A stretch of DNA of 64,000 nt, from contig CM056574.1 of assembly GCA_029721435.1 (NCBI GenBank), forward strand, positions 76,737,501-76,801,500, read 5' to 3'. The translations under genes were made by a program, and so were the position numbers. The notes below the pieces were generated by a model. The model was not told the DNA's origin, did not search any database, and worked only from the letters and a program-made list of their open reading frames with translations. Every line of letters starts with the position of its first letter. Position 1 is the stretch's first letter. Positions 27,806-58,278 of this stretch are shown here, one piece after another. This DNA comes from Gymnothorax reevesii. Taxonomy: Eukaryota > Chordata > Actinopteri > Anguilliformes > Muraenidae.

Positions 27806-28394
27806 ACAGCGGAACCCGTAGGGCTGAAACCCTATTGTTTTTGCTTTTTATTATTATTATTTTTTTATTATTATTATTATTATTATTAGGGGTTCAAGCC
27901 CATAGGGCTGAAACATTATTGTTTTTGTGTTTTTTTTGGGGGGTTCAAGCCCGCAGAGCTGAAACCCTATTGTTTTTGCTTTTTATTTTTATTATTTTTT
28001 TTTACTATTATTCTTATTATTATTATTAGGGGTTCAAGCCCGTAGGGCTGAAACCCTATTGTTTTCGCTTTTTATTATTATTATTTTTATTATTAGGGGT
28101 TCAAGCCCATAGGGCTGAAACCTAATTGTTTTTGTGTTTTTTTGGGGGTTCTAGCCCGCAGAGCTGAAACCCTATTATTTTTGCTTTTTATTTTTTAAAT
28201 TTTTTTACTTTTATTCTTATTATTATTATAAGGGGTTCAAGCCCGTAGGGCTGAAACCCCATTGTTTTTGCTTTTTATTTTTATAATTATTATTATTAGG
28301 GGTTCAAGTCCGTAGGGCTTAAACCCTATTCTTTTCGCTTTTTATTAGGGGTTCAAGCCCGTAGAGCTGAAACCCTATTGTTTTCGAAACAAAA
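27806..28394 (+). repeat. array of nine solo element heads (GGTTCAAGCCC...GGGCTGAAACC)
   Basis: Nine copies of the 25-base imperfect hairpin begin near 27806 (truncated), 27891, 27942, 28031, 28097, 28147, 28233, 28301 and 28349. Each is followed by CTATTGTTTTTG, a short CTTTTTA tract and a T/TTA microsatellite of varying length, then the next head. Bodies and tails are absent between them. The same head occurs once more at 49413, directly after a tail whose inverted repeat matches it. Confidence 0.85.
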
Positions 28395-30207
28395 GGGGCC
28401 AACGGCTCCTGGCAACGAAGTTGCGAGGAACCTATTGTTTTTCTAGAGATTATTATTATACTTCCGCGGCTTTGCGACCCGCTTTGAGGCCTTTCCCGCG
28501 GTGCGAGCCCCACCACATTTGGCACAGACCTCAAGCCTGGCAAAACTCAACATTTTCTGGAGTGACTGGGCGTGGGCGTGGTCAGGGGGCTCAATAGCGC
28601 CCCCAAACGTAGGGCCGTTTTTGGGCATATTTCGTCGGAGGTGCACAAAATTCGGTGACATCATAGGTCCTCTAAGTACGATGTCATGAGATTTAAAAAC
28701 ATTTTTTTTGCCCAACAGGAAGTCAGTCGTGGACCGTTTTCTGCGGAAATTTTCAATATACGATTGCAGTTTTGAGGCCTTTAGGATGTGCAAAAACCTA
28801 CGAAACTTTGCACATATGTGTGAATCCCAATGCAATTTCATATATATCACAGCTGGCGACTTGCGTGGCAGATCAGCTCTGTAGCACCCCCTAATGCATT
28901 TTATGATATTACAGATGGAGGATAGCTTTTAGGCGCATGATACGTGGCACATATGTTGTAAGGTACGGTACTTGATTTATGAGGGGGGTTGTGGGCACGA
29001 GCGTGGTAAATTGGCTGAATGGCGCCCCCTAGGCACTGCCAATAGTGTTTCAATGAAGCAGCCCCCGTATACCGTTTCACTTACAAGTATGAAAATCGCC
29101 AGTCACCTGTAAGGGGTCAAGACGTACAAAAAGGCCTCTTGGAGCAATATCGTAAAACAAACAGGAAGTCAGCCATTTTGAATTTTATGGTCATGTTGGG
29201 GCAATTTGCAGGTGTCGTATTTTAAGAAACTCCTCCTAGACATTTAATGCGATAGACTTCAAATTCGGTTTGTGCCTTCATAAGACCTGTGCGAGCAAAA
29301 GTTTCGTAAGACGTGTACTACAGTTTTAGGGCGTGGCCGTGGGGGCGTGGCAAACTTTGATGTTTGCCATAAGACATATGTTGTTATAACTCGGCCATAC
29401 ATAATCGTATCCGCCCGAAACTTCCTACATATGATGACAGTCGCACCCTGAAGATGTCTGAATGTCAACATTTGTTAGAAGTCAAAGCGCCACCTGCTGG
29501 CGACAGGAAATGGCATGTTTTACGGCTTTGATGTGCACTTCCAAGATATGAATGCAGATTTCTTAGACGGTTCATCATATCCTCTTCAAAATTGGGGATA
29601 TTAGCCTTAAGGCCTTGCAGATGGAGTGCTGCGAATATTGTGCCCTTTTGTCAAACAGCGCGGCCGTGGCGGCCCATCAAATTTTAGGTGGCGCCGTGAT
29701 AGAGGAAGTGATAGAGGAAGTGGATGAAAAAAAATTCCCATACTGCAACCCATACTGTGTTTCGAAGTCCGTCACTCTAAATTTATCAATATATATATAT
29801 ACAGTCATAACATAATAATATTTCCAAAAGTTTAAATTCAAATTCTACCAAACTTGGTAATAATATTCCCTGTGTTGTGTTGATGAAGTGTACTAAACGG
29901 CGTTTGATCCCGTCAAATGGTTCATGAGATATGATGTAAAGATGACAGTGAGTGCTGCAGCAGCAGTCATTGTGTAATTTGAGCTGCTTGGTCTCAAGGC
30001 AGGTAGGGTAGGGGCATGTTTGGCATGTCAAAATGGTATAGCGCCCTCCAGAAAATTTTTGCACTCCCCTCAGGAAACCAAATTTTACGCAGTCCCGCAG
30101 TGTCCAATGGCTCTGAATGGACACCTGCACCCATCAAGATCTTGCCGCCACCCCAACGTACACGAGGGGTACGAGGGCCCTTTCAACGCTGCTTGCAGCT
30201 TTAATTA
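28395..30207 (+). repeat. hairpin-ended non-coding element, family C
   Basis: The head contains GCAACGAAGTTGC (28412-28424) followed by GAGGAACCTATTGTTTTT. The body (28450-30030) has CAGGAAGTCAGCCATTTTG, ACTCCTCCTAGA and GCGCCACCTGCTGG motifs. The last 170 bases are homologous to the family A tail and end in the hairpin GCTGCTTGCAGC (30188-30199) plus TTTAATTA. Head and tail do not carry the same inverted repeat, so C looks chimeric: its own head with an A-type tail. No coding frame is conserved. Confidence 0.7.
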
Positions 30208-30312
30208 GGGGGCCAAGCCTGAGGGGCTTGGGTCACGCGTATGCACACATACGCGTTTCCCAGGACCAGCGGTGCTGGAAACCCTATTGTTTTTGTTCGG
30301 ATTTTGATTATT

Positions 30313-30346
<34 letters not shown>

Positions 30347-31841
30347 AAGTTATTTTTATTTTTCCGTTGGTAAAAGTGGTGCTGCAGCCTAAACCGTGCA
30401 AGGGAGGGTGGTGCAATTTAGAGGGTTGGTCCAGAACCCTGCACTCACCTCAGACACCAAAATTCACATATGTTCGCTAGCAGGGGGCGCTGTAACTAAG
30501 GGCAACGCGTTTTGGGCTATAACTCCCAAACTGTACATCTCACATTCAAAAACTTAATATCTGCAGATTCCCTAAAAAAGCCCTGAATCACTTGGGCTTG
30601 GCCACGCCCATTTCCGCCGACAAAATTTTTTCGCAAAATCGCAAAAACTGGAAAACCTACTTTTTCGAACTCCTCCTTTGGGTTTTGTCGTATCCAAGTG
30701 AAATTTGGCAAGTACACTCTACCCTTTGACCTGATTTAAAGTTATCAAAGGAATTTTGTTCATTCAAAGTATACGCAAATTCTTAGCGAATAACATTTTC
30801 TAGCAAGTTATGCAAATGTTTGCATTGCTATATCTCGGTAAAAATAAAGGCTAACAACACCAAATCTGAGATCTTTAGTTGGAATGGGACTGTGAGGGAA
30901 TAAGCCAAATTTGGTTAATGTTGGCCACTAGGGGGCGCTGTAAAGGTGGGAAATTTATATCTCTTAAACGCCATGACTCATTTTCACCAAATTTGGTGGG
31001 TAGGATGCTGGGTCACTCCTGAGGCCAAGTTATGAAGTTCATTATGACTGGTCAAACTGGGCGTGGCTTATTACAAGATAAAAAACCAACTTTTATTTTA
31101 GCTCAAGTATTTGGCTGAGGGCTCCCAAAGTTACAGGATATATTTAGAATAGCAGACAGACCACCCATACCAAAAATTCTGTGTCACGTCCACTAGGTGG
31201 CGCTGTAACAGATGCAAATGCATTTTGGCTTGTAACTTCCACATTTTAAATCAAATCTTCATAAACTTTAAATCCACATATTCCCCAAATAGAGTCACAG
31301 CATGTGACATAGGCCCCACCCCCTCCCACCACATATTTTTTATTTTAAGTTACTAGACATTAAAAACATACTTTTGCGAACTCCTCCTAGTGTTTAAACT
31401 ATATCTGCACAAAACTTTACTGTCACAATCTTCAAACGTGCCTCATCAAAAGTTATCAAAAGAAATATGCTACTCTAAAAAATATGGTTCTTATAAATAA
31501 ACAATTTTTTTCTGCTAGCTAAAAAACACATATTGTTACATATTTGTGTCAAAGTCAAAGCTGTCAACATCAAACTCTTTTCACTCGCTGCAGAGGTCAA
31601 ACAGAGGCTCTGTGCCAAATTTGGCCCAAATTGGACGATAGGGGGCGCTATAAACAGAGAAACATCTGAAGACATGAAAGTTGATCAGATTTGCACGAAA
31701 TTTGGGGAGTATGATATTGAGTCAATCCACCGCCTGGTAACGAAATACAGCTATTTGCATTCCATGGGCTCGGCGAGACCTGGGGGCCGAGTCCCGTGGG
31801 TAGGCTTGGCCCCCTTTCATAACTGCTTGCAGTTCTAGTTA
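30208..31841 (+). repeat. hairpin-ended non-coding element, family B, copy 1 (complete)
   Basis: Starts GGGGGCCAAGCCT (30208-30220). The exact inverse AGGCTTGGCCCCC sits at 31802-31814, followed by the palindromic hairpin AACTGCTTGCAGTT (31821-31834) and CTAGTTA. The head also contains ACGCGTATG/CATACGCGT (30235-30243/30248-30256), a perfect 9-bp stem, then AAACCCTATTGTTTTTG and a TTA microsatellite (30305-30345). The body has four plus-strand AGGGGGCGCT or AGGTGGCGCT motifs and ACTCCTCCTAGTG. Confidence 0.85.
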
Positions 31842-33315
31842 CAGTTATTTTTATTTTTCCGTTGGTAAAAGTGGTGCTGCAGGCTAAACCGTGCAAGGGA
31901 GGGTGGTTCAATTTTGAGGGTTGGTCCAAAACCCTGCAGTCACCTCAGACGCCAAAATTCACATACGTTTGACAGCAGGGGGCGCTATAGCTGAGGGCAA
32001 CGCATTTTGGGCTATTACTCCCACACCGTATGTCTTACATTCGAAAACTTTATATCCACAGATTCCCTGAATAGCCATGAATCACATGGGCTAGGCCACG
32101 CCCATTTCCGCCTCAATTTTTTTTTAGCAAAACCGCAAAAACTGGAAAACCTACTTTTTCGAACTCCTCCTTGGGGTTTTGTGAAAGTGTGAAATTTGGC
32201 AGGTACACTCTACCCATTGACCTGATCTAAAGTTATCAAAAGAATTATGTTCGGTCAAATTATGTGCAAATTATTAACAAATAAATTTTTCTAGCTTGCT
32301 ATAAAAACGCTAACATTTGCATATCTCGACCAAAATAAATGGTAACAACACCAAATCTGAGATCCTTGGTTGGCATGGGACTGTGAGGGTAGGCGCCAAA
32401 TTTGGTGAATGTTGGCAACTAGGGGGCGCTGCAAAAGTGGGAAATTTATATCTCTTAAATGGCATGACCGATTTTCACCAAATTTGGTGGGTAGGATGCT
32501 GGGTCACTCCTGATGTCTTGAAGTTTATTATGACTGGCAAAAGTGGGCATGGCTTATTACAAGATAAACAAAAAAATTTTATTACAGCGCAAGTGTTTTG
32601 CTGAGAGCTCTGAAAGTTACAGGGTATTTATAGAATAGCACACAGACCACCCATACCAAAAAATGCGTGTCTCCTCTACTAGGTGGCGCTGTAACAGATG
32701 CAAATGCATTTTGGCTTGTATCTTCCACATTTTAAATCACATTTTCATAAACTTTATATCCACATGTTCCCCAAATAGAGTCACATCATATGACATAGGC
32801 ACCGCCCACTTCCTCTTTTATTTCTCTTTTAAAGTGACTAGACAACAAAAGCCAACTTTTTCAAACTCCTCCTAGTGTTTAAACTCTATCTGCACAAAAC
32901 TTTGCTATTACATTCTCCAGACATGCCTGATCAAAGGTTATCAAAATAAATTTGCTAGTCCAAAAAATATGGTACTTATAAATAAACCATTTTTTCTGCC
33001 AGCTAACAAAGACATATTGTTGCATATTTGTGTCAAAGTCAAAGCTATCAAAATCAAACTCTATTTACTCACTGGAAAGGTCAAGCAGAGGCTCTGTGCA
33101 AAATTTGGCCCAAATTGGCCGATAGGGGGCGCTATAAACCGAGAAACATGAAGTGTTATGAAAGTTGATCAGATTCACACAAAATTTGGGGAGTAAGATA
33201 AAGAGTCAATGTACCTCCTGGTAACGAAATACAGCTATTGGGCTCTGTGAGATCTGGGGGCCAAGTCGCGTGGAGAAGCTTGGCCCACTTTCATAACTGC
33301 TTGCAGTTCTAGTTA
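31842..33315 (+). repeat. family B, copy 2 (headless tandem copy)
   Basis: Repeats copy 1 from the TTTTTCCGTTGGTAAAAGTG block (offset 1495 bases) to the tail hairpin AACTGCTTGCAGTT (33295-33308, offset 1474) and CTAGTTA. The head is missing, so the copy probably arose by unequal exchange rather than a fresh insertion. Motif spacing is kept: AGGGGGCGCT/AGGTGGCGCT sites near 31975, 32420, 32680 and 33122. Confidence 0.85.
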
Positions 33316-33382
33316 TTATTAGGGCCCGAGCACCGACCAGTGCCAGGAACCTATTGTTTTTGATGGGATTTTTATTCTTCTT

Positions 33383-33413
<31 letters not shown>

Positions 33414-33607
33414 TTAGGGCCCGAGCACCGACCGGTGCCAGGGCCCGGAACGGGTCCTGGCACCGAAGGTGCAAGGAACCTATTGTTTTTGATGGGATTT
33501 TTAGGGCCCGAGCACCGACCGGTGCGAGGAACCTATTGTTTTTGATGGGATTTTTATTATTATTCTTCTTCTTCTTCTTCTTCTTCTTCTTCTTCTTCTT
33601 CTTCTTT
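33316..33607 (+). repeat. stacked family A heads with TTC microsatellites
   Basis: GGGCCCGAGCACCGACC-type heads at 33322, 33417 and 33504. Each has a small hairpin (GCACCGACCGGTGC at 33425-33438 and 33512-33525; GCACCGAAGGTGC at 33460-33472) and GGAACCTATTGTTTTTGATG, then TTC repeats (33373-33412, 33560-33605). Long open frames here are poly-Lys or poly-Phe from (TTC)n. Confidence 0.85.
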
Positions 33608-36600
33608 TTATTCTGCTGCGAGAACGCATTTTTGAGGGCTTTGCCATGCACGAAAACTCACAAAAATTTGCCCACACGTCAGTCGTCGTGAAAATTGCAA
33701 AGTATTATTATTTTTGTGCTTGGACATGCCCCGGTGGCTCTATAGCGCCACCAAACACGCGGCCATTTTGGAACGCACTTGCTCGGATTCTCACGAAATT
33801 TTATAGAGTCATAGTAGTCTTCATAAATTTTTTTGTTAATTTTTTTGAAATTTTTTTGCCTCACAGGAAGTGAGCTATGAGCCATTTCCTGCGTTTTTTC
33901 AGATTTTACGAACACATTTTTGAGGGTTTTATCATACTCGAAAACTCACCAAACTTGGCTCGTAAACTAGAAATATTACGTTCTGTGATTCGATATCTCA
34001 TTTGGCACTGAGTGTGACATGGTAGCTCTATAGCGCCCCCTAATACATAATTGCATTTTTGAGGGCCTCAGCATGCTTGAAAACTCACAAAACTTTGCGA
34101 ACATATTAAGCTGGTCTTACTTTTTACTAGGATATAGGGTTTACAGATAGATGTGGCAAAATTGCATTACAGCGCCACCTAGAAAATTTCAATGAAGCTG
34201 CCCTCGCAGCATGTTTGACCTACATGTACAAAATTCGGTGGACATGTGTACTATGCCAAGACCTAAAAAAAAGTTTCTAGGTGCCATGACCTAGACTCAA
34301 CAGGAAGTCCGCCATTTTGAATTGAATTTGCAACTTTTTTTAATTTTTTGCCATTCACAGGCGTCGTACTTGAACGAACTCCTCCTAGAGATTTTATCCG
34401 ATCAACTTAAAATTTGGCACAGGCCATCTAAAGACCTTTCTTATGTTAAATTGCGAAGCTTTTTTGGATTCATCGAAATTTGTGTCCGTGGCGTTGCGGC
34501 GAATTTTGATGTTCCGCCATGAAAATGGAAGTTGCTTTTATGAGCACTTGCTTTGTGAGATTTGCGTGAAACTTTCCAGGCTTAATAATAGTCTACTTCC
34601 AAATATACCTATATGTTGATATTGGAGTCGGTGTGGTCAGGTGGCTCCACAGCGCCCTCTTGACACGGCCTTGTTGATATAAAAGTGCTTGAATGTTCAT
34701 GAAATTTTGTCTGATCATTGCATTTGTTTTTTTGGGCTATGCTGATTTTTTTGAAATTTTTCGGCCAAACAGGAAGTGAGCTATGAGCCATTTCCTGCGT
34801 TATTCCAAATTTTACGAACACACGTTTGAAGGCCTTAGCATTCTCGAAAACTTGCAAAACTTGCAAGAATTATACTTGTCTGATTGTCTTCAATTTGAGG
34901 CAGAAATTGGCAGTCACTGTGGCATAATGGCCCTATAGCGCCCCCAATCAGATTTTCGAAAGAATTGCCCTTTTGAGGATCTCAACATGCTCAAAAACTC
35001 ACAAAATTTTGTACAATTCTAAAGACCATCATTCCTATTACACTGATAAAAAATTTACATATAGGCCTGGCAAAAATGGCATTATAGCGCCCCCTGGAAA
35101 ATTTCAAATAAGCAGCCCTTGCATCGTGGTTGACCTGCATATATGAACTTCGGTGGACATGTGGAATATCTTGAGACCTAAAAAAAAGTCTCTTGGAGCC
35201 ATGACCTAGACCCAACAGGAAGTTTGCCATTTTTAATTGAAATTTCAACTTTTTTAGATTTTTCGCCATTCGCAGGTGTCGTACTTTAACGAACTCCTCC
35301 TAGAGATTTTATCCGATCAACTTAAAATTTCGCATATGACGTCTAAAGACCTGGTCGATGTTAAATTGCGAAGCTTTTTTGTATCAACCGAACTATGTAT
35401 CTGTGGCATCGCGGCGAATTTCGATGTTCCGCCCTGAAACAGGTAGTTGGTTTTACGCGCACATGCTTTGTGAGATTTGCGCGAAACTTCAAAGGCTTGA
35501 TAAGAGTCTACTTTCAAGTATACCTATATGTTGATATTAGATTGGGTGTGGTCAGGTGGCTCCACAGCGCCCTCTTGACACGGCCATATTGAGATAAAAG
35601 TGCTTGATTGTTCATGAAATTTAGTGTGATCATTGCATGTGTCATGTCAGGGAATGATAATTTTTTAGAAATTTTTTGGCCAAACAGGAAGTGAGCTATG
35701 AGCCATTTCCTGTGTTTTTCCAAATTTTAGAAACACATGTTTGGAAGCCTTAGAATACTCGAAATCTTGCAAAAAGTTGCACAAATTTTAATTGCCTTAT
35801 TGTCTTCAATTTTATATATCAATTTACACTAAATTAGGTACAATGGCTCTTTAGCGCCCCCAATCAGATTTTTGAAAGAATTGCCCTTTTCAGGGTCTCA
35901 CCATGTTCAAAAACTCACAAAATTCTTTAAATGGATAAAGACCATCATTTGTATTACTTTGACAAGAAACTTACTTATAGGCATGGCAAAAATTTAATTA
36001 TAGCGCCCCCTGGAAAATTTCAAATAAGCAGCCCTCGCAGCCCGGTAAACCGACATCTATGAAATTTGGTATACATGTGGAATATGCCGAGACCTGAAAA
36101 AAAGTCTCTTGGTGCCATGACCTAGACTCAGCAGGAAGTCCGCCATTTTTAATTGAAATTGCAACTTTTTTGGATTTTTCGCCATTCACAAGTGTCGTAC
36201 TTTCACGAACTCCTCCGAGAGGTTTTATCCAATCAACTTACAATTTGGCAACTGATATTACGAGACATTGCCGATGTTAAATTGCGAAGCTTTTTTGGAT
36301 TCATTGAACGATGAATCCAAGGCGACGCGGCGAATTTCGATGTTCCGCCATGAAACAGGAAGTTGGTTTTACTCCAACATACTTGGTGGGATTTGCCTGA
36401 CACTTTCCAAGCTTCATAAAAGTGTCCTCCCAAATATAAATAAATGCTGATATTGGATCAGGAGGTGCCAGGTGGCTCCACAGCGCCCTCTAGATATGGC
36501 CATGTTAAGATAAACGTGCTTGAATGTTCATGAAATTTGGTGTGATCATTGCATTAGTCATTCCGGGCAAGGGTTAATTTTCTAAAAATTTTTGGCCAAA

Positions 36601-37080
36601 CATGAAGTGAGCTATGAGCTATTTCCTGCGTTTTTCCAAATTCTACGAAAACACGTTGAAAGGCCTTAGAATGCTCCAAAACTTGCAAAACCCCACAAAT
36701 TATAAATGTCTTCTTCTCTTCAAAGTCATCCATAAATTGGCACTAAATGTGGCATAATGGCTCTACAGCGCCTCCAATCAGATATATAGAAGAATTGCTC
36801 TTCTGAAGGTCTAAACATGCTGGAAAATTAACAAAAATCAACACACTCTTGGAGCTCGGTATTACGATTACTCGGTTGTAGATTGTGCACAGGCATGTCA
36901 AAATGGTACCATAGCGTCCTCTAGAAAATTTTTGCACTCCCCTCAGGATACCACATTGTATGCAGTCCAGCAGTGTCCATTGGCTGTGAATGGACACCTG
37001 CACCCATCAAGATCTTGCTACCACCCCAACGTGCACAAAGGGGGCGAGGGCCCTTTCAACGCTGCTTGCAGCTTTAATTA
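33608..37080 (+). repeat. family A element, copy A1 (long form, body and tail)
   Basis: Body from TTTATTCTGCTGCGAGAACG to the tail hairpin GCTGCTTGCAGC (37061-37072) and TTTAATTA. It is built from a module of about 920 bases: GCGCCMCCTRGAAAATTTC recurs near 34168, 35088 and 36006, with a shortened last unit near 36915. A1 has one more module than A2-A5, which explains its extra 0.9 kb. No frame is preserved between modules. Confidence 0.85.
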
Positions 37081-39714
37081 GGGCCCGAGCACCGACCGGT
37101 GCGAGGAACCTATTGTTTTTGATGGGATTTTTATTATTCTTCTTCTTCTTTTTATTCTGCTACGAGAACGCATTTTTGAGGGCTTTGCCATGCACGAAAA
37201 CTCACAAAAATTTGCAGACACGTCAGTCGTGGTGAAAATTGCAAAGTATTATTATTTTTGTGCTTGGACATGCCCCAGTGGCTCTATAGCGCCACCAAAC
37301 ACGTGGCCATTTTGGAACGCACTTGCTCGGATTCCCACAAAATTCACTAGGGTCATAGTAGTCATCATAAATTTTTTTGTCAATTTTTTTGAAATTTTTT
37401 TGCCTCACAGGAAGTGAGCTATGAGCCATTTCCTGCGTTTTTTCAGATTTTACGAACACATTTTTGAGGGCCTTATCATTCTCGAAAACACACCTATCTT
37501 GGCTCATAGATTGAAAATATGAAGTTCTTTGATTCAATATCTCATTTGGCACTAGGTGTGTTATGGTGGCTCTATAGCGCCCCCTAATACATAATTGCAT
37601 TTTTGAGGGCATCAGCATGCTCGAAAACTCACGAAACTTTGCAATCATATTAAGCTGGTCATACTTTTTACTAGAAAGTGGGGTTTACGGATGGATATGG
37701 CAAAATTGCATTACAGCGCCACCTAGAAAATTTCAATGAAGCAGCCCTCGCAGTGTGTTTAACCTGCATGTACAAAATTTGGTGGACATGTGTACTATGC
37801 CAAGACCTAAAAAAAAGTCTCTTGGTGCCATGACCTAGACTCAACAGGAAGTCCGCCATTTTTAATTGAATTTGCAATTTTTTTTTATTTTTTGCCATTC
37901 ACAGGCGTCGTACTTTAACGAACTCCTCCTAAAGATTTTATCCGATCAACTTACAATTTCGCATATGACTTTTTAAGACCTGGTCGATGTTAAATTGCGA
38001 AGCTTTTTTGGATTCATCGAACTTTGTATCCGTGGCGTCGCGGCGAATTTCGATGTTCCGCCATGAAACAGGAAGTTGGTTTTACGCGCACATGCTTTGT
38101 GAGATTTGCGCGAAACTTCACAGGCTTGATAAGAGTCTACTTCCAAGTATACCTATATGTTGATATTAGATTGGGTGTGGTCAGGTGGCGCCACAGCGCC
38201 CTCTTGACACGGCCATGTTGAGATAAAAGTGCTTGAATGTTCATGAAATTTGGCGTGACAATTGCATGTATTTTTTTGGGCTGTAATTATTTTTTTGAAA
38301 TTTTTTAACCAAACAGGAAGTGAGCTATGAGCCATTTCCTGCGTTATTCCAAATATAAAGAACACAGGTTTGGAGGTACTACCATACTCAAAAACTTGCA
38401 AAACTTTGCAAAAATTTTATTTGTCTGATTGTCTTCAATTTGAGACACAATTTGGCAGTAAATGTGACATAATGGCTGTATAGCGCCCCCAATCAGATTT
38501 TTAAAAGAATTGCCCTTTTGAGGGTCTCAGCATGCTCAAAAACTCACAAAATTTTGTACAACTCTAAAGCCTATCATTCCTATTACAATAATAAAAAATG
38601 TATATATAGGCGTGGCAAAAATGGCATTATAGCGCCCCCTGGAAAATTTCAAATAAGCAGCCCTTGCATCGTGGTTGATCAGCATGTATGAACTTCTGTG
38701 AACAAGTGGAATATCCTGAGACCTAAAAAAAAGTCTCTTGGAGCCATGACGTAGACCCAACAGGAAGTTTGCCATTTTTAATTGAAATTTCAACTTTTTT
38801 AGATTTTTCGCCATTCGCAGGTGTCGTACTTTAACGAACTCCTCCTAGAGACTTTATCCAATCAACTCAAAATTTGGCGAATAATATCTTAAGACCTTGC
38901 TGATGTTAAATTGCGAAGCTTTTTTGGATATATCGAACGATGTATACGTGGCATTGCGGCGAATTTTGGCGTCCCGCCATGAAACAGGAAGTTGGTATAA
39001 CTCCCACATACTTTCTGGGATTAGTCTAAAACTTTCCAAACTTGATAAACTTGTCTACCCAAGTATAAATATATGCTAATATTAGATCGGAAATGGCCAT
39101 GTAGCTCCACAGCGCCCTCTAGATACTACCATGTTAAGATAAAAGTGCTTGAATGTTCATAAAATGTGGTGTCATCATTGCATTCGTCATTCCGGGCAAT
39201 GCGTAATTTTTTGAAATTTTTTGGCCAAACAGGAAGTGAGCTATGAGCTATTTCCTGCGTTTTTCCAAATTTTACGAATACACGTATTAAGGCCTTAGAA
39301 AGGTCCAAAACCTGCAAAAACGTGGCAAAAATTATCATTGTCTTATTGCCTTGAATTTGATACATCAACTGGGACTAAATGTGGCATAATGGCTCTATAG
39401 CGCCCCCAGTCAGATTCTTTAAACAATTGCTTTTTTGGGGCTCGAAGCGTGCTTTAAAATTTACGAAAATCAACAAACACATGATGCCCGGTATTCCAAT
39501 AACTATGTTGTAGATTTTGCGCACAGGCATAACAAAATGGTATCATAGCGCCATCCAGAAGATTTTTGCAAACCCATCAGGAAAACACATTGTACACAGG
39601 CTAGCAGTGTCCAATGGCTGTTAATGGACAACTGCACCCATCAAGGTCTTGCTGCCACCCCACTGTGCATGAGGGGTGCGAGGGCCCTTTCAACGCTGCT
39701 TGCAGCTTTAATTA
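37081..39714 (+). repeat. family A element, copy A2 (complete)
   Basis: The head GGGCCCGAGCACC starts at 37081. The tail has GGTGCGAGGGCCC at 39675-39687, the inverse of the head with 2 mismatches in 13, then the hairpin GCTGCTTGCAGC (39695-39706) and TTTAATTA. The next copy's head follows immediately at 39715. A short TTC tract follows the head. Confidence 0.85.
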
Positions 39715-47540: not shown

Positions 47541-49412
47541 TTTTTCTTCTTCGTCAGAAATGTTTTTAAAAATTCCCGTGACATGGTAAATGGCAGAGTC
47601 CTAAAATTTTGCAGACTGGTTGGAAGTTGTGTGAAAATGCTGACCAAGGCATTTTTAACTCAATCCGCCTTATGGTGGCGCTATAATTCAAGAAAAACAG
47701 GTTTTAATTTTAAAGGTCATAACTCCTATTTTGTAAGTCCAATTTACACAAAACTTGGTAGAGACATTCCTTGGTACATTCTCTACAACTTTTCAATAAG
47801 GACCTTGAAGATACTCCATATTTAATTTTCCCGAATTTTGAATTTTTTGAAAAGCACATTTTTGACATCTTCTCCTCGGCCGTAGATCCAATTCCTAAGA
47901 AATTTGCTGTGGATCATCAGTGGACCAACCTTATCTAAGATTGCATAAAGCTTGGTAATATCTCAATTGGTTTCCAAAATATTGACCAATGAACTTCAGC
48001 AGGGGCCTGGCTCAGCACATAAATGGAAAAAATTCAACAACCATTGGGCCAATCATCACATAACTTGTAAAATATGTCCAGATAAGTACCAGGAACATAC
48101 ACTGTCAGATTAATACAAATCGGCTAATAGGGGGCGCTATACCAGAAATCAGACTATAAATCAGCAACTGTTTGTCCTATAGCCATAAAACTCACAAAAT
48201 ATGTTGATATAAGTACCTGAAGCATAGCCAGAAAATTTCACTCAAATTGACGGATAGGGGGCGCTATAACTGCTAAACAAAGCTGCATGGCATAACACAA
48301 ATCAGACCATAAATCAGAAATTGTTCGGCCTATAGCCATAAAACTCACAGCATATATTCAATTAGTACCTGCAACATACCCAGAAAATTTCATTCAAATT
48401 GACTGATAGGGGGCGCTATATCTACTAAACAAAGCAGCATGGTATGACACAAATCAGACTATAAATCAGCAATTGTTTGGCCTATAGCCATAAAACTCAC
48501 AGGATATTTTTATATAAGTACCTGAAACATACTTTGAAAATTTCATGCAGATTGACTGATAGGGGGCGCTATAAATGCAAAACACAGCATTGTGGTATAA
48601 CACAAATCAGACTGTAAATCATAAATAGTTTTTCCAATTATTACAAAACTCACAGGATATGTCCACATAAAAACCAGAAACATAGCCTGAAAGTTTCAAT
48701 CAAATTGACCAGTAGGGGATGCCATATATGCACAAAATGGCCTAACATAACACAAATCAGACTATACATCATGTTGGTCATTACACTGGCAAAATAGGTC
48801 CACATAAATACCTGCAACACACTCAGAGTGGTTTTTGTCCCCCGCCACCATGATAGCGAGCGGAGCAGTATTCAGCTCCATCTGGCTGTCAGTCACGTCC
48901 TGTTTGTTCTGAACGCGATATCTCAAGAACGGTTTGACCGATTCCATTCATCTTTGTTGGTAAGGTATATTGGTGTGATACGCTGACCCCAGTAGATTTC
49001 CGTGACCTTGGCATAATTCTCAAGGTCATCACGATCATTTGACCACTTACAAATTCCTTGTCAACATGATATCTCAAGAACGGTTCGACCGATTCCATTC
49101 ATCTTTCGGGTCAAGGTGTATTAGGGGTGGGGGACATAGTCTTCAGCTCCATCACTCCATCTGTCCAGCTGTCCGTCCGTCACATCCCGTTTTTTGTCAA
49201 CGTGAAATCTCGAGAACACTTTGACCGGTTTTATTCATCTTTGGCTTGAATGTGTAATTTTGTGATGCGTCGACCCCAGTTGATTTCCGTCACCTGGCAG
49301 GGGACATGGCCACGTTTAGTGGCAACACTTGTTATTTAAGCTGTTAAAGCTTTCAACTACCAATGGTCTTTCTTGGCTTGAACCCCAGAATTGCCGCTTG
49401 CGGCTATATTTT
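47541..49412 (+). repeat. hairpin-ended element, family D/E, copy 1 (head missing)
   Basis: The D part (47541-48815) contains five tandem units of about 152 bases, each with ATAGGGGGCGCTATA or a decayed form. The E part (48816-49412) has about three units with ATCTCAAGAACGGTTTGACC and GATTCCATTCATCTTTG. The tail is GGCTTGAACCCC (49375-49386), then the hairpin GCCGCTTGCGGC (49393-49404) and TATATTTT. GGCTTGAACCCC is the exact inverse of the GGGGTTCAAGCC heads at 27.9-28.4 kb and of the head that follows at 49413. Confidence 0.8.
48127..48725 (+). repeat. 152-bp tandem repeat inside D, five units
   Basis: ATAGGGGGCGCTATA starts at 48127, 48254, 48406 and 48559, with the decayed fifth at 48711. 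Between them 'CACAAATCAGACTATAAATC' and 'CATAAAACTCACA' recur. The first interval is shorter (127), the rest are 152-153. Spacers are as conserved as the repeats, so it is not a CRISPR. Confidence 0.85.
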
Positions 49413-49500
49413 GGGGTTCAAGCCCGTAGGACTGAAAGCCTATTGTTTTTGCTTTTTATTAGGTCTCGTCTCCTCAACGAAGTTGAGAGAGGCCTATCGT
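49413..49500 (+). repeat. two stacked heads (GGGGTTCAAGCCC type, then CTCAACGAAGTTGAG type)
   Basis: A GGGGTTCAAGCCC...CTATTGTTTTTG head abuts the D/E tail at 49412/49413. Fifty bases later a different head follows, with CTCAACGAAGTTGAG (49473-49487), a 6-bp stem with a GAA loop, then AGAGGCCTATCGTTCTTATT. Confidence 0.75.
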
Positions 49501-50173
49501 TCTTATTCAGACTATGATTCTTATTATTTTGCACGATTTTGTGTCTCTTCTACAGGTTTCATGTTTTTATCGATTGTCGTGAAACTTGGTGAGTTGGTGC
49601 ATACCAATGGGAAGGGGTTCCAATAAGCTTTTGGGCCGGATTGGCCCGGGCCTTTTCGAGCAGTAGGACAGAAAAGTTCCAAAATTTAACATGGGAAAAA
49701 TTTTCAAAATGGTCTTAGAGTGGTGCAAATTTTTTTTAAAGATGCGTAATGAAATTCTGAACAAAAAAGTAAATGGCGATGAAGTCGTAGGTCACGTGGT
49801 TTAGCTGCCATCTTGGATTTTACGCATTTTCCCCTCCTGATGATCCTTCCATTTTCAAAAATCTTCTCTGTAAAAACTGCTCATTGAAAAATTCTGAAAA
49901 TGACATATATGAACCTAAAGACTCTCCTAAGCAAATGATCTCGAGCAGAATTTGAAAATAAATTTTACTTTTTAAACTAGAAGCTTTTGAATTTCAGTAT
50001 ATTAAAGATTTTTCAGTTTCGATCAAAAGTCTTTCACTTTCGCTGTGGCGTGAGAAAAATATTTCCCTCCACTTCCATTGAAATAAATGTGGGAAGTTTG
50101 ATGCGACACCCATTCTTTCTGTCGGTAATAAGATTACTGCTATTGGATGTGCACCGTAAACTATTACATTTTT
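49501..50173 (+). repeat. body of a further hairpin-headed element (no tail found)
   Basis: Non-coding text in the same style (GATTGTCGTGAAACTTGGTG, 'GGCCGGATTGGCCCGGGCC') follows the 49463 head. No matching tail with an inverse GAGACGAGACC and TT-loop hairpin was seen, so it is probably truncated. Confidence 0.4.
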
Positions 50174-50267
50174 ACCCCTCAGCCCTCAAGGCTGATGGGG
50201 TATGGCTATCCTTCGTGCGGTTGGGCGGGCGGGCGTCTCCAAAAACTTTGACATCGGGCTGAGGGGT
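50174..50267. repeat. compact inverted-repeat element ACCCCTCAGCCC ... GGGCTGAGGGGT
   Basis: ACCCCTCAGCCC (50174-50185) and its exact inverse GGGCTGAGGGGT (50256-50267) bracket 70 bases. The left part also folds by itself: CAGCC (50180-50184), CTCAA loop, GGCTG (50190-50194). The layout resembles the 25790-25920 element. Confidence 0.55.
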
Positions 50268-51189
50268 ATTCCGTGCATTGCACGCCAGTTTTTTAAAGCA
50301 TGCTGTGAATTTTTGTATTTTCTTTGAGCCATTTGGCAGGGCTGTCCTTTAGATGTACTTTCGATTTGCCATCATCCTCACATGTTTTTAACATCAACGT
50401 CAGTCCTATTGCAGCCTCTCAGCCTCTGTGGGCAATTAGGTAAATGTTTGCCTTTTTGTACTCAGAATTTAAATTTTTTTCAAGGCAAAAAGAGGTAGGT
50501 ACTGATGTCTATATTTCTTTTAGTTGCATGTGCACATATTTGTATTGGTGTAAGTATAACTTTTAACATGTATTACTGCATCACATTTAAGTTGTGAATC
50601 ATTTACAATTTGCTGCAATGGAAGATGCAAGGCTCTAATGCTTACCATACCTGCAGCTTTGTTTTGACAATTTAATCAGTAATTGTTGCTAGTAGAGTTT
50701 CATTAATGTGATGCATACGTAAAAAATGTTCCTTGTGTTCATATCGCAAGAATGTACATTAAAAAATTATTGCTAACCTAAATATTATGATGTGTTGAAC
50801 ATGTGTTTTAATACAGTTGTTGGAAACTGTAATAGGTGACTGCTTGAAGAGTGTAAGTTATTGAATTAACTGTTTCTTGTCATCAAACAAAAAAAAAACC
50901 CCACCACATTTACAGTGCCTTGTTGTGGCGTGGTGGCTTGTGTGTCTCTTTGACCCTGCGGGCTATGCTGTCCAGAGTTTACACTCGTGGTTGGGACACC
51001 CATGTCAGAAAGACCAATGGATGGAGACCCAACTAAATCTGTACAACTTTGAAGCAAAAACAAACTGTTTTTAAATTCTAACATTTGGAAAATTTTCGCC
51101 ATGTTGTCTCTAGTGCCCAACCGGTCATCCTCATAGGCCAAGCTACTAGGAAGAGACCACACTTTTGCCCGCGGGCAAATGTTACACTA
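50268..51189. other. no feature recognised
   Basis: AT-rich non-coding sequence without recognisable repeats or reading frames. Confidence 0.4.
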
Positions 51190-51192
51190 GTG

Positions 51193-51197
51193 ATTAA

Positions 51198-51236
<39 letters not shown>

Positions 51237-51237
51237 C
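51193..51237 (+). repeat. (ATT)n microsatellite
   Basis: About 14 uninterrupted ATT units directly left of the fold-back element. Confidence 0.95.
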
Positions 51238-51555: not shown

Positions 51556-52799
51556 CTATATCCCCCCACATTATATGCCGAGGGGATTATTAAATACTGA
51601 AAATCAATAAAAATCAAAAAATTAATAAATGCTTCTTCCAGGTAAATCCTAGAAAGCTGAAATTTCAGGAGCATGTTCAATGAAGAAAGAAAAAGGTTTT
51701 ATACACTGCAACTTATGGTGATTTCAGAAGTGCGTCACTCTATATTTTTCAAAAAATGAATATTCATAACATGTTAATATCTCAACAAATATTCATTCAA
51801 ATGGTACCATGCTTGGCAGTTTGTTTGTACACATGGAGCTTATAAAGTATACCAAAGGACATTTTGATACGATAAAAGGTTTGTCCACAGTAACAAATTA
51901 TATAATACTGTACAGCGTATTATGACCAAAATATTTTTAATTTCAAAAAGTCTCAAATGGATTTTCACGAAATTAGGTCACAGTACAGGGCATGGTACAG
52001 CAATGATGTGTGTTTTTTTTCAAAATTTTATGACAATGCGACAGGCCTTGGTCAAAGCAAAAGTCCCATTTTGGTGTATTTAGGTGGCGCGAGAGAGCCA
52101 TTTGTCTGTTTGGTGAAGATTTTAGACATTTAAAAAATGTTGAAATCCACTATGAATGCCCTATAAAACTGTAACTATAAAATTTGGTTTGTTTTTGAGC
52201 ATTTTTAAGGGGTCAAATGGAGGTTGGGAATTGTGTATGCATTGAAAGAAGGCAGTGAAAGTGGCTGGGGACCCCATCTTTCACGCCTCAAAAAATCCAA
52301 ACCGTTCGACTTTTGAAAAAGTTTTACAGTAATTTTCATTGACAGAGTGTGCTTTGTCATGTATTAGCATTTGGGGTCGATATGATGAACGCCGTCGAAG
52401 GAGTTCGCGCTTGTTCGAAGGCAAATTTTGGCCAAATTTAGGGAAAAAAGGAAATTTTGATATGCAAATTGCGGACTTCCTGTTCGATTTAGATAATGGG
52501 TGTTGAATGTTTATTTTTAGGCCTTGATGAGTTGAACAATATAGTGTTGGTTCCATCTCTCTACGAGTTTCCTTACGGTCGTGGTGGCCGTCTAAGTGCC
52601 AGTGAAATGTGTCTTGGTGATGCTAGAGAGCCATTTTGGCACCTAAGGGGATACTACCCCCAAAAGGCACAACTAGACCATAAGGAGAAGCTCCATACCA
52701 TTTGGTATTTGTAAGTGGTAAAGTTTTCGAGTTCTGGTCCGGTAACGATTTTATTACGGACGGACGGACGGACGGACACACTGATCGGTATAACCCCCG
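51556..52799 (+). repeat. non-coding repeat body, family G, ending in a single arm
   Basis: Same writing style ('GATTTTCACGAAATTAGGTC'), no reading frame of note. 52660-52790 repeats the right arm of the fold-back: CAAAAGGCACAACTAGACCA at the start and CGGACGGACGGACGGACACA at the end, followed by CCCCCGGTATAATAA. Confidence 0.55.
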
Positions 52800-54287
52800 G
52801 TATAATAAAAATTGGTTGACAGGTCAAGGGTGGCAAGCTCTTACATCTGATTGAGGCGCTGCCCATGAGGGCTGCGAAATGGCCCGGATAGCGCCCCCTT
52901 GAAATTTTCAAAAACCCCTCTCCATAGGGGTTTTTTTTTTGGAGTAGGAAGATGAAAATTGGTACACGTGTATTTGGCCAAGATGCACAAAAAAGTCACA
53001 GGCATCTTTTGTCTACTCCAAACAGGAAGTCGGCCATTTTGATTTTATTGCGTCATTTTTGCCTGATTTCCACACATTGTATTTTAACGCACTCCTCCTA
53101 GAGATTTCAACAAAACAACACCAGATTTATTAGTAAACATCGAGAGACCATGTAGATCAAAAGCTGTACTCCGCATGTCTGTAGGTCAGTGCGCGTGGCC
53201 GCTAACAGGAAGTGACCGGTTTTTACTTTCACTTGTACTGATGACACATAGTTGAACCCATCATCTTCATTCCCCCTCCACAACATGTAGAATAAGTTGT
53301 TGAAGCAACCTTCTGAATGCTGTGAAGCTACAAGTAATGGCGTGTGGCGACGCGGCGAAGCGGCGACTTTGGATCCCTCACCACGAAAATATGTTTGCGT
53401 TTTTGATGTTTTCACTGAAGTCATATCATCATGAAAATTGATCTGCCAGTCAAGGATGGTGAGCTCTAACATCTGATAGGGACGTTGCCCAAAAGGACAG
53501 CAAAATGCCTCGATAGCGTTTTTGAAATTTTCTAAAACCCCTCCCCGTTGGGTTTTTTTTGGAATAGGACAATGAAAATTGGTACACATGTTCAGGCTAC
53601 CAAGACAAACAAAGAGTCTCTGGCACCATTGGTCAACTCCAAACAGGAAGTCAGCCATTTTGATTTTAACATGTCATTTTGGCCTGAGTTCCACACGTTG
53701 TATTTTCCTCCAAGCGATTCTGTCCAATCAAACTCATATTTATTCAAGATTATCAAGAGACCATGCTGATCAAAAGTTGTGCTCTGCATGTCTGTAGCTC
53801 AATAGGCGTGGCCGCTATGGCGTCCCCATTTCTGATGCCTCGCCATGCATATTTGAGCAGCTCTCTCTCCCTCATACTTCATCCAAATGGATTCAAAATT
53901 CCTGTACATGATAAGAACCCCACCCTGAACGCTTCCATATGCTCGTAGGTAATCTTGGTCATGGCGCCCCCTTGTGGAAATAGGAAATGCCATATTTTAC
54001 ATTTTAATTGACCGATTTGCTTGAAACTTCATATTTGTGCTGAGGTTCTGCCCCTGAATGCACCTGCCCTCGTTTGGTTACGCTCTGAGTGCTCCCTAGT
54101 GGACGAAGTATCAACTTGTCATAACTCTTTCAGCTTTGTCCGATTCGCTCAACACAGGTTGGGGCCTGCACTAGATCTGTCAAATGGTCTTGAGTGCACA
54201 GCTGCACCCGTCAGAATATCACCACTACCCCCAACATGCGCAAGATGGCGAGGGCCCGTTCATCACTGCTTACAGCTTAAATTATTA
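52800..54287 (+). repeat. hairpin-ended non-coding element, family F
   Basis: Two internal modules about 620 bases apart. AAACAGGAAGTCGGCCATTT near 53020 and AAACAGGAAGTCAGCCATTT near 53640 are aligned copies, as are the ...GATAGCG..., 'CAAAAACCCCTCTCCATAGG' and 'CTAAAACCCCTCCCCGTTGG' blocks. Its last 90 bases resemble the A/C tail (CACCCGTCAGAATATCACCA; GCGAGGGCCCGTTCATCACT) with a decayed hairpin ACTGCTTACAGCT near 54265. Confidence 0.65.
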
Positions 54288-54920
54288 GTATTATCATCAT
54301 TTCTTTCCTTTCTTTTCTGCAAATTCCTGTGAGATGGTGAATGATAGAGACCAGAAATTTTGCACGTTGGTTGGAAGTTGTGTCTAAATGCTAACCAAGG
54401 CATTTTTAACTCAATCGGCCTGATGGTGGCACTATTATTCAAGAAAAACAGTTTTCCACTTTAAAGGCCTTAACTCCTACGCTCTAAGTCCTATTTACAC
54501 AAAACTTGGTACAGACATTCCTTGGTCCAAACTTTATGATTTAAGGACCTCTAAGGTCCGCCAAATTTGATTTTCCAGAATTAAGAATTTTTTAAAAAAC
54601 ACATTTTTGACATCTCCTTTTAGGCCGTAAGTTCGATTCCTTCAAAATTTGCCGTGGATCATTCATGGACTAAGCTTATAAAAGAATGCATAAAGCTTGT
54701 TGAAATCTCATTTCGTTTCCAAGATATTGACCATTGAACTTCAGCTTGGGTGTGGCTGAGCACATAAATGGACAAAATTCAACAACCATTGGGCCAATCA
54801 TCACAGAACTTGCAGAATATATCCATATAAGTACCAGAAACATACCTTGATAGTTTAATGCAAATTGGCCCATAGGGGGGCGCTATAAATACAAAAAATT
54901 AGCATGGCATGACACAAATC
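54288..54920 (+). repeat. family D/E copy 2, left part
   Basis: Matches the 47.56-48.6 kb element (for example GGTTGGAAGTTGTGT, AAGGCATTTTTAACTCAATC, GGGGGGCGCTATAAATAC). It breaks off after GACACAAATC at 54920, where retrotransposon sequence begins. Confidence 0.8.
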
Positions 54921-57104
54921 GATCCTGATTTGAGCTCTCCGTTTGATGCTGCTCTCCCTGAAGAGGAGTTGTCCAAGGTCTCAGTTGGATACTTCGTCAA
55001 GGATGGAGGTTTGATGAGGAAGTGGAGACCACCCGATGTCCCAGCCTCTGAGGACTGAGCAGTCATACATCAGATTGTGGTTCCCAAGACGTATCGTCTG
55101 GAGGTTCTGAGGTTGGCACACAAGGTTCCTTTTGGAGGTCATTTAGGTGAGAGCAAGACCTGCAACAAGATCATGAGGCACTTCTACTTTCCAAAGATGA
55201 GACAGGATGTGGCTTCCTTCTGTCAGACATGTCACACATGCCAGATAGTGAGAAAACTGAATCAGAGGATCCCTGTCGCACCACTGAAACCCATTCCAGC
55301 CTTTGAGGAGCCATTCAGCGGAGTCATCATTGACTGTGTCGACCCCTTGCCTAAGACGTGATCTGGCAACCACTACCTGCTGACAATTACGTGCGCATCT
55401 ACAAGTTTTCTCCGAGGCAATTCCGCTGAGGAGCATCAAAGCTCCCTAGGTTGTGAGGGCTTGGATCAACTTCACTTTGTTTGGTCTGCCGAAGGAAATC
55501 CAGTCAGATCAGGGATCCAACTTCATGTCTGGCTTGTTCCAAAGGGTGGTGTGTCAACTTGGAGCAAAGCAGATAACATCAAGTGCCTACCATCTGGAGT
55601 CCCAGGGGGCGCTAGAGGTTCCACTACACTCTAAAAAACATTATGAGGACATACTGCTTCCAGAATGAAAAGGACTGGGAAGAGGGCATCCCACTGCTCA
55701 TGTTTGCTGCTTGGGAGTGGGTGCAGGAATCCTAGGAATTCAGCCCATTTGAGCTGGTATTTTGTCACACAGTCCGAGGTCCACTGAAGCTGTTGAAAGA
55801 GAGATGGCTGCAGGAGCCCAGTGAGGATGTGAGTCTGCTGGATTATGTGTCCAGGTTCAAAGAGCGACTACGTCAAGCTTGTGAACTGGCAAAAGAAAGC
55901 GTCAAATCTGCGCAGCGAAAGATGAAATGGCTGCATGACCGAGATGCCAAGGAGTGGAGCTTCAACCTTGGAGATGAGGTGTTGGCATTTTTGCCCATTC
56001 CTGGAAGCCCTCTGCAGGCAAGGTACCATGGACCGTATGAGATCATCCATAAGGTTAGCGATGTGGACTACATCATCAGGACTCCTGATCGGAGGAAGGC
56101 CTTGCAGCTGTGCCACATCAACATGCTGAAAGAGTGTCATCAGAGATCTGATGAGGTCGCGACTGTCAGCATTTGTTCCCAGACTGGAAGGACCAAAGAA
56201 CCTCAGGCGGTGGAGCTGGTAGACGATTGTCCTGTCCGATTAAGTAACTCCGAGGTCTTGGCCAACCTTCCACAGAAGCTGAGTCGCCTACCTCGTGAGG
56301 ACCGACGGCAGGTTGCAGACCTCCTCCTGGAATATAAGGCCATATTTCCAGATGTGCCCAGCAAGACACACATCGCTAAACATGATGTGGACGTTGGCAA
56401 GGTGCCACCTATAAAACAATATCCCTACCACATCAAGGTCCGCCCGATGGAGTGTAGGAAGTGTCCTACATGCTGGAGAATGACATCATAGAACAGAGTC
56501 AGAGTGACTGGGCTTCACCTTGTGTCCTTGTTCCGAAGCCTGAAGGTTCCATCAGATTTTGTATAGATTATCGGAAGGTGATTGCCATGACCAAGACGGA
56601 CTCCTACCCAGTCCCCTGGATCGATGATTGCATCGATCAGATCGGTAAGTCCAAGTACATCACAAAGTGTGATCTACTGAAAGAATATTGCTGTGTCCCA
56701 CTGACTGAGAGAGCTAAGGAAGTATTAGCATTCGTCACAGCCAGTGGTTTGTTTCCAATACAAAGTCATGTCTTTTGGAATGAAGAACTCACCAGCGACC
56801 TTCCAGAGGATGATGAATCAGTGCCTCGCAGGTCTTGAGGGTGTTGGAGTTTAAATAGACGACATTATTGTGTATAGTGACACCTGGAATGATCGGCTGT
56901 CTCGGTTGAGGCCAGTCTGACTGTCAACTTGGCAAAAAGCGAGTTTTGTCAGGCCAATGTCATTTATCTGGGCTATGTCGTTGGTCATGGTCAGGTAGCT
57001 CCGATTGCTGAAAATGTCCAAAGCATTGTTGATTTTCCTGCCCCTGAAAACAGGCGTGGCTTGATGAGGTTCTTAGGCATGGCAGGTTATTAGAGGAAGT
57101 TCTG
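54921..57104 (+). pseudogene. Gmr1-like Ty3/gypsy pol fragment, integrase upstream of reverse transcriptase
   Basis: Order along the DNA: integrase zinc finger (HLGESKTCNKIMRHFYFPKM ... FCQTCHTCQ, 55140-55250). Next is the integrase core (GVIIDCVDPLPKT, LFGLPKEIQSDQGSNFMSGL, 55320-55560), then a GPY/F-like C-terminal region (RDAKEWSFNLGDEVLAFLPI, LQARYHGPYEI, 55940-56050). A linker follows with LLLEYKAIFPDVPSKTHIAK. Last is reverse transcriptase (SDWASPCVLVPKPEGSIRFC-IDYRKV, 56500-56580; CDLLKEYC.VPLTERAKEV near 56670; 'GVYIDDIIVYSD'-like remains near 56850). The frame at 55793-56491 spans the integrase/reverse transcriptase boundary without an LTR, so this is one element with the order INT-RT. 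That order is known from fish Gmr1-type elements. Several stops and frameshifts; no LTR, gag or RNase H; both ends are truncated. Confidence 0.8.
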
Positions 57105-58278
57105 CAACTCACAGGATATGTCCACATAAGAACTTGAAACATGGCCTGAAAGTTTCAATCAAATCGACCAGTATGGGGTGCCACAAATGCACTACATAGC
57201 CTAACATCACACAAATCAGACTATACATCATAAGTTGTTGGTCCAATCATTACACTGGCAAAATAGGTCCACATAAATACCTGCTACGTTTTTTTGTCCC
57301 CTGTGCCGCAGTAGCGAGCGGAGTGGGGGGACATCATATTCAGCTACGTCCGGCCGTCCGTCATGTCCGGTTTGTTCTGAACGCGATATCTCAAGAACGG
57401 TTTGAGCGATTCCATTCATCTTTGGTGATAAGGTATATTGGTGTGATACACCCACCTCCGTAGATTTCCGTGACCTCGGCATTATTCTCAAGGTCATTAC
57501 AACTATTTGACCACTTACAAATACCCTGTCAACATGATACCTCAAGAACGGTTTGACCGATTCCATTCATCTTTGGTCTCAAGGTGAATGAGGGGCGGGG
57601 GACATAGTATTCAGCTCTGACAGTCCATCCGTCTGGCCGTCCGTCCGTCATGTCCCGTTTGTTGTGAATGCGATATCTCAAGAACAGTTTGACTGATCCT
57701 ATTCATCTTTGGGCTCAAGGTGTTTTATGGGCAGCGGACATAGTATTTAGCTCTGTCTGTCCGTCATGTCCCTTTTGTTGTGAACGCGATATCTCAAGAA
57801 CAGCTTGACTGATTCCATTCATCTTTGGTGTCAAGTTGAATTAGGGGAGTGCTCAGAGCCTACTAGATTTACGTGACCTTGGCATTATTCTCATGGTCAT
57901 TACAACCATATTAGCACTTATAAATACCTCGTCAATGTGATATCTCAAAAACAGTTTGACCGATTCCATTCATCTTTGGTGGTAAGGTGCATTTGGCCGG
58001 GGGATATAGTATTCAGCTCCGACAGTCCATCCGTCCGGCCGTCCGTCCATCACGTCCTGTTTGTTGTGAACGCAAAATCTCAAGAACGCTTTGACCGATT
58101 TTATTCATCTTTGGCTTCAATGTGTATTTGTATGATGTGCCGACCCCAGTCGATTTGTCACCTGGCAGGGTACATAGCCACGTTTAGTGGCAACACTTGT
58201 TAATTAAGCTGTTAACGCTTTCAACTACCAATGGTCTTTCTTAGCTTGAACCCCGGAATTGCCGCTTACGGCTATATT
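57105..58278 (+). repeat. family D/E copy 2, right part with tail
   Basis: Resumes the D sequence at AACTCACAGGATATGTCCAC. E-type units with ATCTCAAGAACGGTTTGA follow near 57389, 57540, 57676, 57790, 57943 and 58078. The tail has GCTTGAACCCC (58244-58254) and the hairpin GCCGCTTACGGC (58261-58272, one mismatch), then TATATTTT. The E part here has about twice as many units as copy 1. Confidence 0.8.

Follow-up and report, generated by a model that had tools for sequence, protein, structure and literature searches.

What kind of sequence fills positions 27806-58278, a span of about 30 kb, in a stretch of 64,000 nucleotides (nt) of the Gymnothorax reevesii genome (contig CM056574.1 of assembly GCA_029721435.1; hereafter the window, whose own coordinates are used throughout), and how did it come to be arranged as it is? 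An earlier inspection of the letters, here called the sequence-only reading, had seen in it at least three families of hairpin-ended, non-coding elements resembling Helentron-type rolling-circle transposons. The span reads as a pile of non-coding transposons, many of them inserted inside one another. Very probably these are HINEs, the non-autonomous kind of Helitron2/Helentron rolling-circle transposon, because the structure of their ends equals that of published Helitron2 and Helentron ends; the resemblance first noticed thus holds, in that the anatomy matches descriptions of Helitron2, Helentrons and HINEs (PMC3627910; PMC4067079).

At least six families, called A, B, D, F, G and H, have this architecture in common (Table 1). 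The words, hairpins and microsatellites of the sequence-only reading were all recovered at their positions, and its common architecture stood; its count of three families or more was too low, and F and H are without CCTATTGTTTTT. The B word GGGGGCCAAGCCT opens its element at 30208, and the inverse AGGCTTGGCCCCC lies at 31802; the A word GGGCCCGAGCACC occurs at 33322, 33417, 33504, 37081 and 39715, and its inverse GGTGCGAGGGCCC at 39675; the D word GGGGTTCAAGCC occurs with zero or one mismatch at 27889, 27940, 28029, 28096, 28145, 28232, 28299, 28348 and 49413, and its inverse GGCTTGAACCCC at 49375. That the 3' word is the inverse of the 5' word is exact for B (13/13) and D (12/12), whereas the A pair is imperfect (11/13). 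The inverted repeats are asymmetric, as had been claimed: the 5' word is terminal, and the 3' word was measured at 19-31 nt inside the 3' end in A, B, D, F, G and the H copy that lies in the first D element (D1). The A-type tail end CAACGCTGCTTGCAGCTTTAATTA is exact at 30184, 37057, 39691, 42373, 44952 and 47517 and recurs with four mismatches at 54261, and further tails stand at 31818 and 33292 (B) and at 49388 and 58256 (D; 1 mismatch). On the minus strand of the window, no A, B or D tail was found with up to five mismatches allowed.

The relation between the two ends was measured in all six families on three segments: the terminal 12 nt as the word, the 48 nt that follow it, and the 50 nt that close with the end of the 3' hairpin. 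Compared without gaps, a word and the inverse of its own tail agree at best at 10 (A), 12 (B), 12 (D), 12 (F), 10 (G) and 8 (H) of 12 positions, a sum reached by the true assignment alone among 720 permutations. Inverse matches of the word with its own head (A 8, B 9, D 9, F 9, G 10 and H 7 of 12) likewise give a sum that only the true assignment reaches (1/720). Taken singly, the tail matches were reached in 2000 shuffles 0 times for B, D and F, 17 times for A, 9 times for G and 215 times for H (the copy in D2, the second D element), and the head matches 71 times for A, 63 for B, 3 for D, 165 for F, 2 for G and 1361 for H. With the H copy in D1, whose word and tail match at 11/12, own words pair at 10-12 of 12 positions in all six families, against a cross-family mean of 7.5 and a maximum of 10. 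Perfect 3' stems of at least 5 bp stand directly downstream of the 3' word in B, F, H and A, and the stems change on both sides between families (GCTGC/GCAGC in A, ACTGC/GCAGT in B and GCCGC/GCGGC in D). Folding of the first 60 nt as DNA was strong in A, B and G (z -4.7, -4.8 and -3.9) and moderate in F (z -2.3); the A-like element C reached z -2.0.

A strict scan of the window for such pairs (12/12 words, a T-rich 5' flank, a 3' hairpin followed by TT, and a separation of at most 4.5 kb) returned four rows, namely B, F and two of a palindromic repeat near 51.3 kb that is not counted here; dinucleotide shuffles returned 0 rows in 8/8 cases. With up to one mismatch there were 7 rows in the window versus 0-2 in shuffles, and with up to two mismatches 35 versus 10-20, so that the two-mismatch scan is weakly selective. 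A broader scan (exact 11-nt words, a separation of up to 32 kb, and the flank rule dropped) gave 45 rows against a mean of 4.85 over 20 shuffles, many of the rows stemming from repeats internal to the bodies. Element F, whose CCAG end runs into a stretch of T, was detected by the exact 11-nt word scan and by eye.

The insertion sites bear on whether these are rolling-circle elements at all. The last three bases before 21 heads are TTA in 13 cases, TTT in 4 and others in 4, and TT follows 15/15 tails, the 3' ends having been placed so as to abut TT (frequency of TT in the window, 0.109). None of the 21 heads has 5'-TC; the CTAG end is confined to B and G, and the 3' ends of the other families are TTAA, TATA, CCAG and CTTG. 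One could suppose that the elements are ordinary cut-and-paste DNA transposons, retroposons or a plain satellite whose ends resemble those of Helitron2 by chance, since the TTA flanking A elements could be a target duplication and the tandem order is satellite-like. This is highly improbable: the inverted words are asymmetric, a single pairing rule holds across six families whose words are unrelated, and a duplication could be no longer than 2 bp in G or 4 bp in the H copies. These limits come from a test in which both ends were slid by up to 3 nt and the longest possible direct repeat was taken, giving 2 nt for G, 4 for both H copies and 3 for B1. The larger values (F 6, D2 9, A element 2 12 and A element 3 6 nt) are uninformative because T runs and abutting copies produce them. 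A constant target duplication, which the sequence-only reading had taken as the mark of an ordinary DNA transposon, is therefore not seen in the informative families.

The coding content was surveyed through 85 stop-to-stop open reading frames (ORFs) of at least 90 amino acids, of which 30 were scanned against Pfam. Those of the elements, among the 30, have no known domain besides the gypsy-like fragment within D2, which contains in-frame stops; its integrase-type domains at 55059-56491 lie above curated cut-offs, and a reverse transcriptase match at 56458-56838 lies just under the cut-off. The rows SR-25, Pox_EPC_I2-L1 and ASFV_P17 (E 0.012-0.1) fall below curated cut-offs and were taken as chance. 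Rfam gave 0 matches at the gathering threshold, and viral contigs gave no match to five patterns drawn from tails, heads and bodies. Three single pattern matches in bacterial contigs (L001, L002 and L003) were also taken as chance; in L001 and L002 the motif is on the other strand, and in L003 no inverse or head word was found within 110 nt around the motif.

How the elements came to lie within one another can be followed in the A cluster, which holds five heads (H1-H5) and five tails, with two headless bodies (u4, u5) and two bodiless heads (H1, H2). Its order reads best as H1[ H2[ (H3 u1)(H4 u2)(H5 u3) ]u4 ]u5, that is, as copies inserted one within another at the microsatellite that follows a resident head. 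The bodies u3 and u4 are 96.9% identical and hold 97 private sites among the two-state columns of the A bodies, the other nine pairs being 85.9-89.3% identical. The longer head (+34 nt) is confined, within this cluster, to H2 and H5, which agree at 86/87 positions. With H2 as the head of u4, the sister bodies u3 and u4 are therefore mirrored by the sister heads H5 and H2. Furthermore, joining the edge of H2, GATGGGATTTTTA, to the TTATTATTCTTC that follows tail 3 yields the junction that H3 and H5 have intact; the repeat that follows this tail opens with TTATTATTC, like the intact A microsatellites of those two heads. The H4 microsatellite has one TTA fewer, so that this junction does not decide about a TTA duplication. 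As two spare heads had to be shared out between two headless bodies, accident alone would match H2 with u4 in one case of two, and the nesting of A draws its weight from count, order and junction combined.

The head-to-tail array of the sequence-only reading is thus present as a tandem order, but nesting accounts for it better than a concatemer does, and a single concatemer was dropped on account of the unit identities and the head variants. In a related explanation, the copies would be tandem products of one rolling-circle event that missed its termination, the stacked heads being 3'-truncated inner copies. A bypassed terminator has been invoked for Helitron arrays (PMC4067079), and such an event would suit the stack of D heads. 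It would leave the headless u4, u5 and the B unit B2 unexplained, and the abutting units are too unlike (u1/u2 87.3%, u2/u3 86.8%) to stem from one event unless that event is old; we regard this explanation as improbable.

A different history would keep the elements as the Helitron2/Helentron type and have the cluster grow by unequal exchange between the microsatellites behind heads and tails, which would duplicate headless bodies and leave stacked heads. It would agree with the adjacency of the closely similar u3 and u4, with a D head stack that is largely a 203-bp tandem unit (2.6 copies), and with B2, which is headless and for which no spare B head was found in the window. However, the sole spare long head, H2, stands where nesting predicts the head of u4; head and body sisters belong to one and the same pair; TTATTATTC begins the repeat after tail 3 as it does in H3 and H5; and the A cluster has as many heads as tails. 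Growth by unequal exchange therefore appears rather unlikely.

Nested insertion also offers an order for the whole span. By the sequence of heads and tails, positions 27806-58278 would consist of two outer D copies enclosing other elements: the D heads at 27815-28388 would open an outer element closing at 49408, and the head at 49413 one closing at 58276. The D head stack itself is more likely the result of local duplication or of 3'-truncated tandem copies, because it is mostly the 203-bp tandem unit; 3'-truncated tandem copies are known for Helitrons (PMC7492417).

Several observations weigh against this account of nested Helitron2-type elements. No Rep, Pif1-type helicase or Helentron endonuclease was found among the 30 of 85 window ORFs scanned. 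The H copy in D2 is weak (tail 8/12, head 7/12), and C fails the word test at 8/12. The 5' hairpin is no better than shuffles in the D2 head (z -0.96) and in the H head in D1 (z -1.32); the last 40 nt reach z -4.0 in G, and in the others only -0.1 to -1.5, near the shuffled mean, so that the short 3' hairpins are unremarkable as energies. T runs and microsatellites would allow a TTA duplication in A, B and F. Finally, simple nesting is misfitted by the headless B2 and by the imbalance of D, in which eight stacked heads, a truncated one and the head at 49413 stand against two tails.

Table 1. Features of the elements in the window, in order of position.
Feature	Positions	Strand	Remarks
D-type head stack	27815..28388	+	truncated head at 27815 and eight with the word (27889-28348); 5' side of D1 by order
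Element C	28395..30204	+	A-like inner head without matching word; A-type tail
Element B1	30208..31838	+	word GGGGGCCAAGCCT, 5' hairpin, microsatellite, exact inverse at 31802, 3' hairpin, CTAG
Headless B unit B2	31839..33312	+	85.2% identical to B1
A head H1	33322..33416	+	bodiless; TTC microsatellite; proposed head of u5
A head H2	33417..33503	+	bodiless, long; proposed head of u4; 86/87 identical to H5
Complete A element 1 (H3 + u1)	33504..37077	+	internal repeats of ~915 bp
Complete A element 2 (H4 + u2)	37081..39711	+	
Complete A element 3 (H5 + u3)	39715..42393	+	long head
Headless A unit u4	42394..44972	+	96.9% identical to u3
Headless A unit u5	44973..47537	+	
D1 body and tail	47538..49408	+	153-bp internal repeats, inverse word at 49375, hairpin, TATA
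Element H in D1	48836..49331	+	TGTCCCCCGCCA ... TGGCAGGGGACA, hairpin, CTTG; 11/12
D head	49413..49461	+	proposed 5' end of D2
E-type head	49462..49505	+	GGTCTCGTCTCC...GAGGCCTATCG; read from sequence; no tail identified
Complete mini-element F	50173..50288	+	116 bp; TACCCCTCAGCCC, 5' hairpin, exact inverse GGGCTGAGGGGTA, 3' hairpin CGTGC-att-GCACG, CCAG
Second, diverged C/A-type tail	54178..54281	+	no head identified
D2 body and tail	54282..58276	+	interrupted by gypsy-like fragment at ~54920-57105
Element H in D2	57295..58199	+	more diverged, 8/12
Dispersed element G	62530..62848	+	TGTCTCCCCCTT, 5' hairpin, TATTGTTTTT, GGGAAGACA, 3' hairpin, CTAG

Some further features of these elements and of their surroundings may be added. 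The last 190 bp of C are 87-90% identical to A tails, and its head resembles, by eye, the inner half of the long A head; the A bodies carry internal repeats of ~915 bp, and B1 shows a weak internal repeat signal at ~712 bp. The motif AACTCCTCCT occurs in 15 exact plus-strand copies in the A, B and C bodies, and AGCGCCCCC in 24 copies with its inverse GGGGGCGCT in 12, across bodies of different families (both 28596-53644). An inverted repeat of a different kind, ACATTCAAAGTCAA / TTGACTTTGAATGT (62430-62910), carries G in its loop, and a palindromic repeat, also of another kind and with GTCCGTCCGTCC arms, has two copies, at 51233-51566 and 52656-52798. A possible extra B-type 3' end lies at 10646-10904, where an exact repeat of CAGTTCTAGTTA at 10895 (expected number 0.20 when one mismatch is allowed) stands behind a hairpin and a 10/12 inverse of a word 250 nt upstream; with a word pair of 10/12 it was not counted as a further family. 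Elsewhere in the window, and all above the Pfam cut-offs, integrase (zinc-binding) and chromo domains at 15398-16288 precede a Tc1/Sleeping Beauty-type transposase fragment at 17420-17896, and there are helix-turn-helix domains at 3440-4099 and MADF/BESS domains at 20667-21308. The Tc1/Sleeping Beauty-type, gypsy and MADF/BESS domains are of a sort that suggests fish DNA.

A working scheme for the nested elements can be drawn after the published Helitron2 model. The 5' word would have two possible partners: the 15-50 nt that follow it, with which it folds into the 5' hairpin, and its inverse close to the 3' end. A Rep-helicase made elsewhere would nick the ends and copy a single strand. When the round closes, the words would pair with each other, so that the 5' hairpin is undone and the stop is set, in line with the suggestion that such pairing abolishes the 5' hairpin and determines where replication ends (PMC3627910). 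The single-strand copy would then join a T-rich site without target duplication. New copies would often enter the TTA/TTC microsatellite behind the head of another copy, and with repeated landing there heads would accumulate to the left and bodies without heads to the right. We propose tentatively that the microsatellite behind the head may be a self-made landing pad, at which families with unlike words and bodies insert at TTA beside a resident head, sparing the ends that each copy needs and building satellite-like blocks. If so, the stacked heads and the headless bodies would testify to a habit of targeting rather than to recombination.

Overall, one window appears to contain at least six families of Helitron2-type non-autonomous elements with unrelated words and one pairing rule. 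The complete 116-bp element F may approach the minimum needed in cis, and the 5' word, its inverse in the head and its inverse near the 3' end would form a natural set for probing the published idea that word pairing ends rolling-circle copying. Nesting would in addition provide a route from transposons to the growth of satellite-like blocks. The instructive part is how the layers are stacked in each other's simple repeats, the kind of element being already known.

Accordingly, the suggestion of an undescribed or unclassified vertebrate group does not hold: Helitron2 had been defined with a zebrafish element, Helitron-1_DR, counted in it (PMC3627910), Helentron proteins have been described in many fish (PMC4067079), and the icefish Helitron2 Helinoto is cited in the reference list of PMC7599744. 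The group itself is not new, and these particular families may or may not be. In the available portions of the literature on Helentrons, Helitron2 and nested or microsatellite Helitrons they were not found described, which does not prove their absence there; a text search with words and body motifs gave unrelated papers only, and the platyfish Helitron paper (PMC4021074) gave none of the terminal-structure terms searched.

Compared with canonical Helitrons (Helitron1), the present elements share the 3' hairpin, and CTAG followed by T in B and G fits CTRR; they differ in having no 5'-TC in the six families and in possessing inverted words and a predicted 5' hairpin. The likeness to Helitron2 lies in the asymmetric words, the 3' hairpin after the 3' word, the T-rich target and a 5' hairpin that folding supports in A, B and G and, moderately, in F. 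As defined by Bao and Jurka (2013; PMC3627910), and grouped in the same way in a Fusarium paper (PMC5148889), Helitron2 has asymmetric words of 8-15 bp, of which the 5' one lies within 0-2 bp of the end and pairs with the nucleotides just downstream, while the 3' one lies 20-30 bp inside and directly before the hairpin; it inserts between TTTT and T/C without target duplication. Autonomous members encode a RepHel protein, none of which turned up in the 30 ORFs scanned here; the first base is T in F, G and H, as described, and G in A, B and D by the present end placement.

The same parts are given for Helentrons and HINEs/DINE-1 by Thomas et al. (2014; PMC4067079), who describe T-rich targets that are left unmodified; these elements resemble the present ones in their subterminal inverted words, 3' palindrome, microsatellite, T-rich targets, clusters and non-coding nature. 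In the mite, the words stand 2-4 nt inside the 5' end and 38-60 nt inside the 3' end, whereas here, by the present placement, the distances are 0 and 19-31. In Helentrons proper, to which the present elements may or may not belong, the partner has an endonuclease domain fused to its Rep/helicase. Cg_HINE of the Pacific oyster (PMC7492417) has its modules in the order seen here, opening with a word of 11-12 bp and a complementary repeat and going on through a microsatellite and central tandem repeats to the 3' word and palindrome; it differs in host and sequences, and its microsatellite units are mostly of 4 nt, in contrast to TTA/TTC here. One or more HINE modules are absent from F, G and H, and all the HINE features (a non-coding body, inverted words, microsatellite, central tandem repeats and 3' palindrome) are present in A and D.

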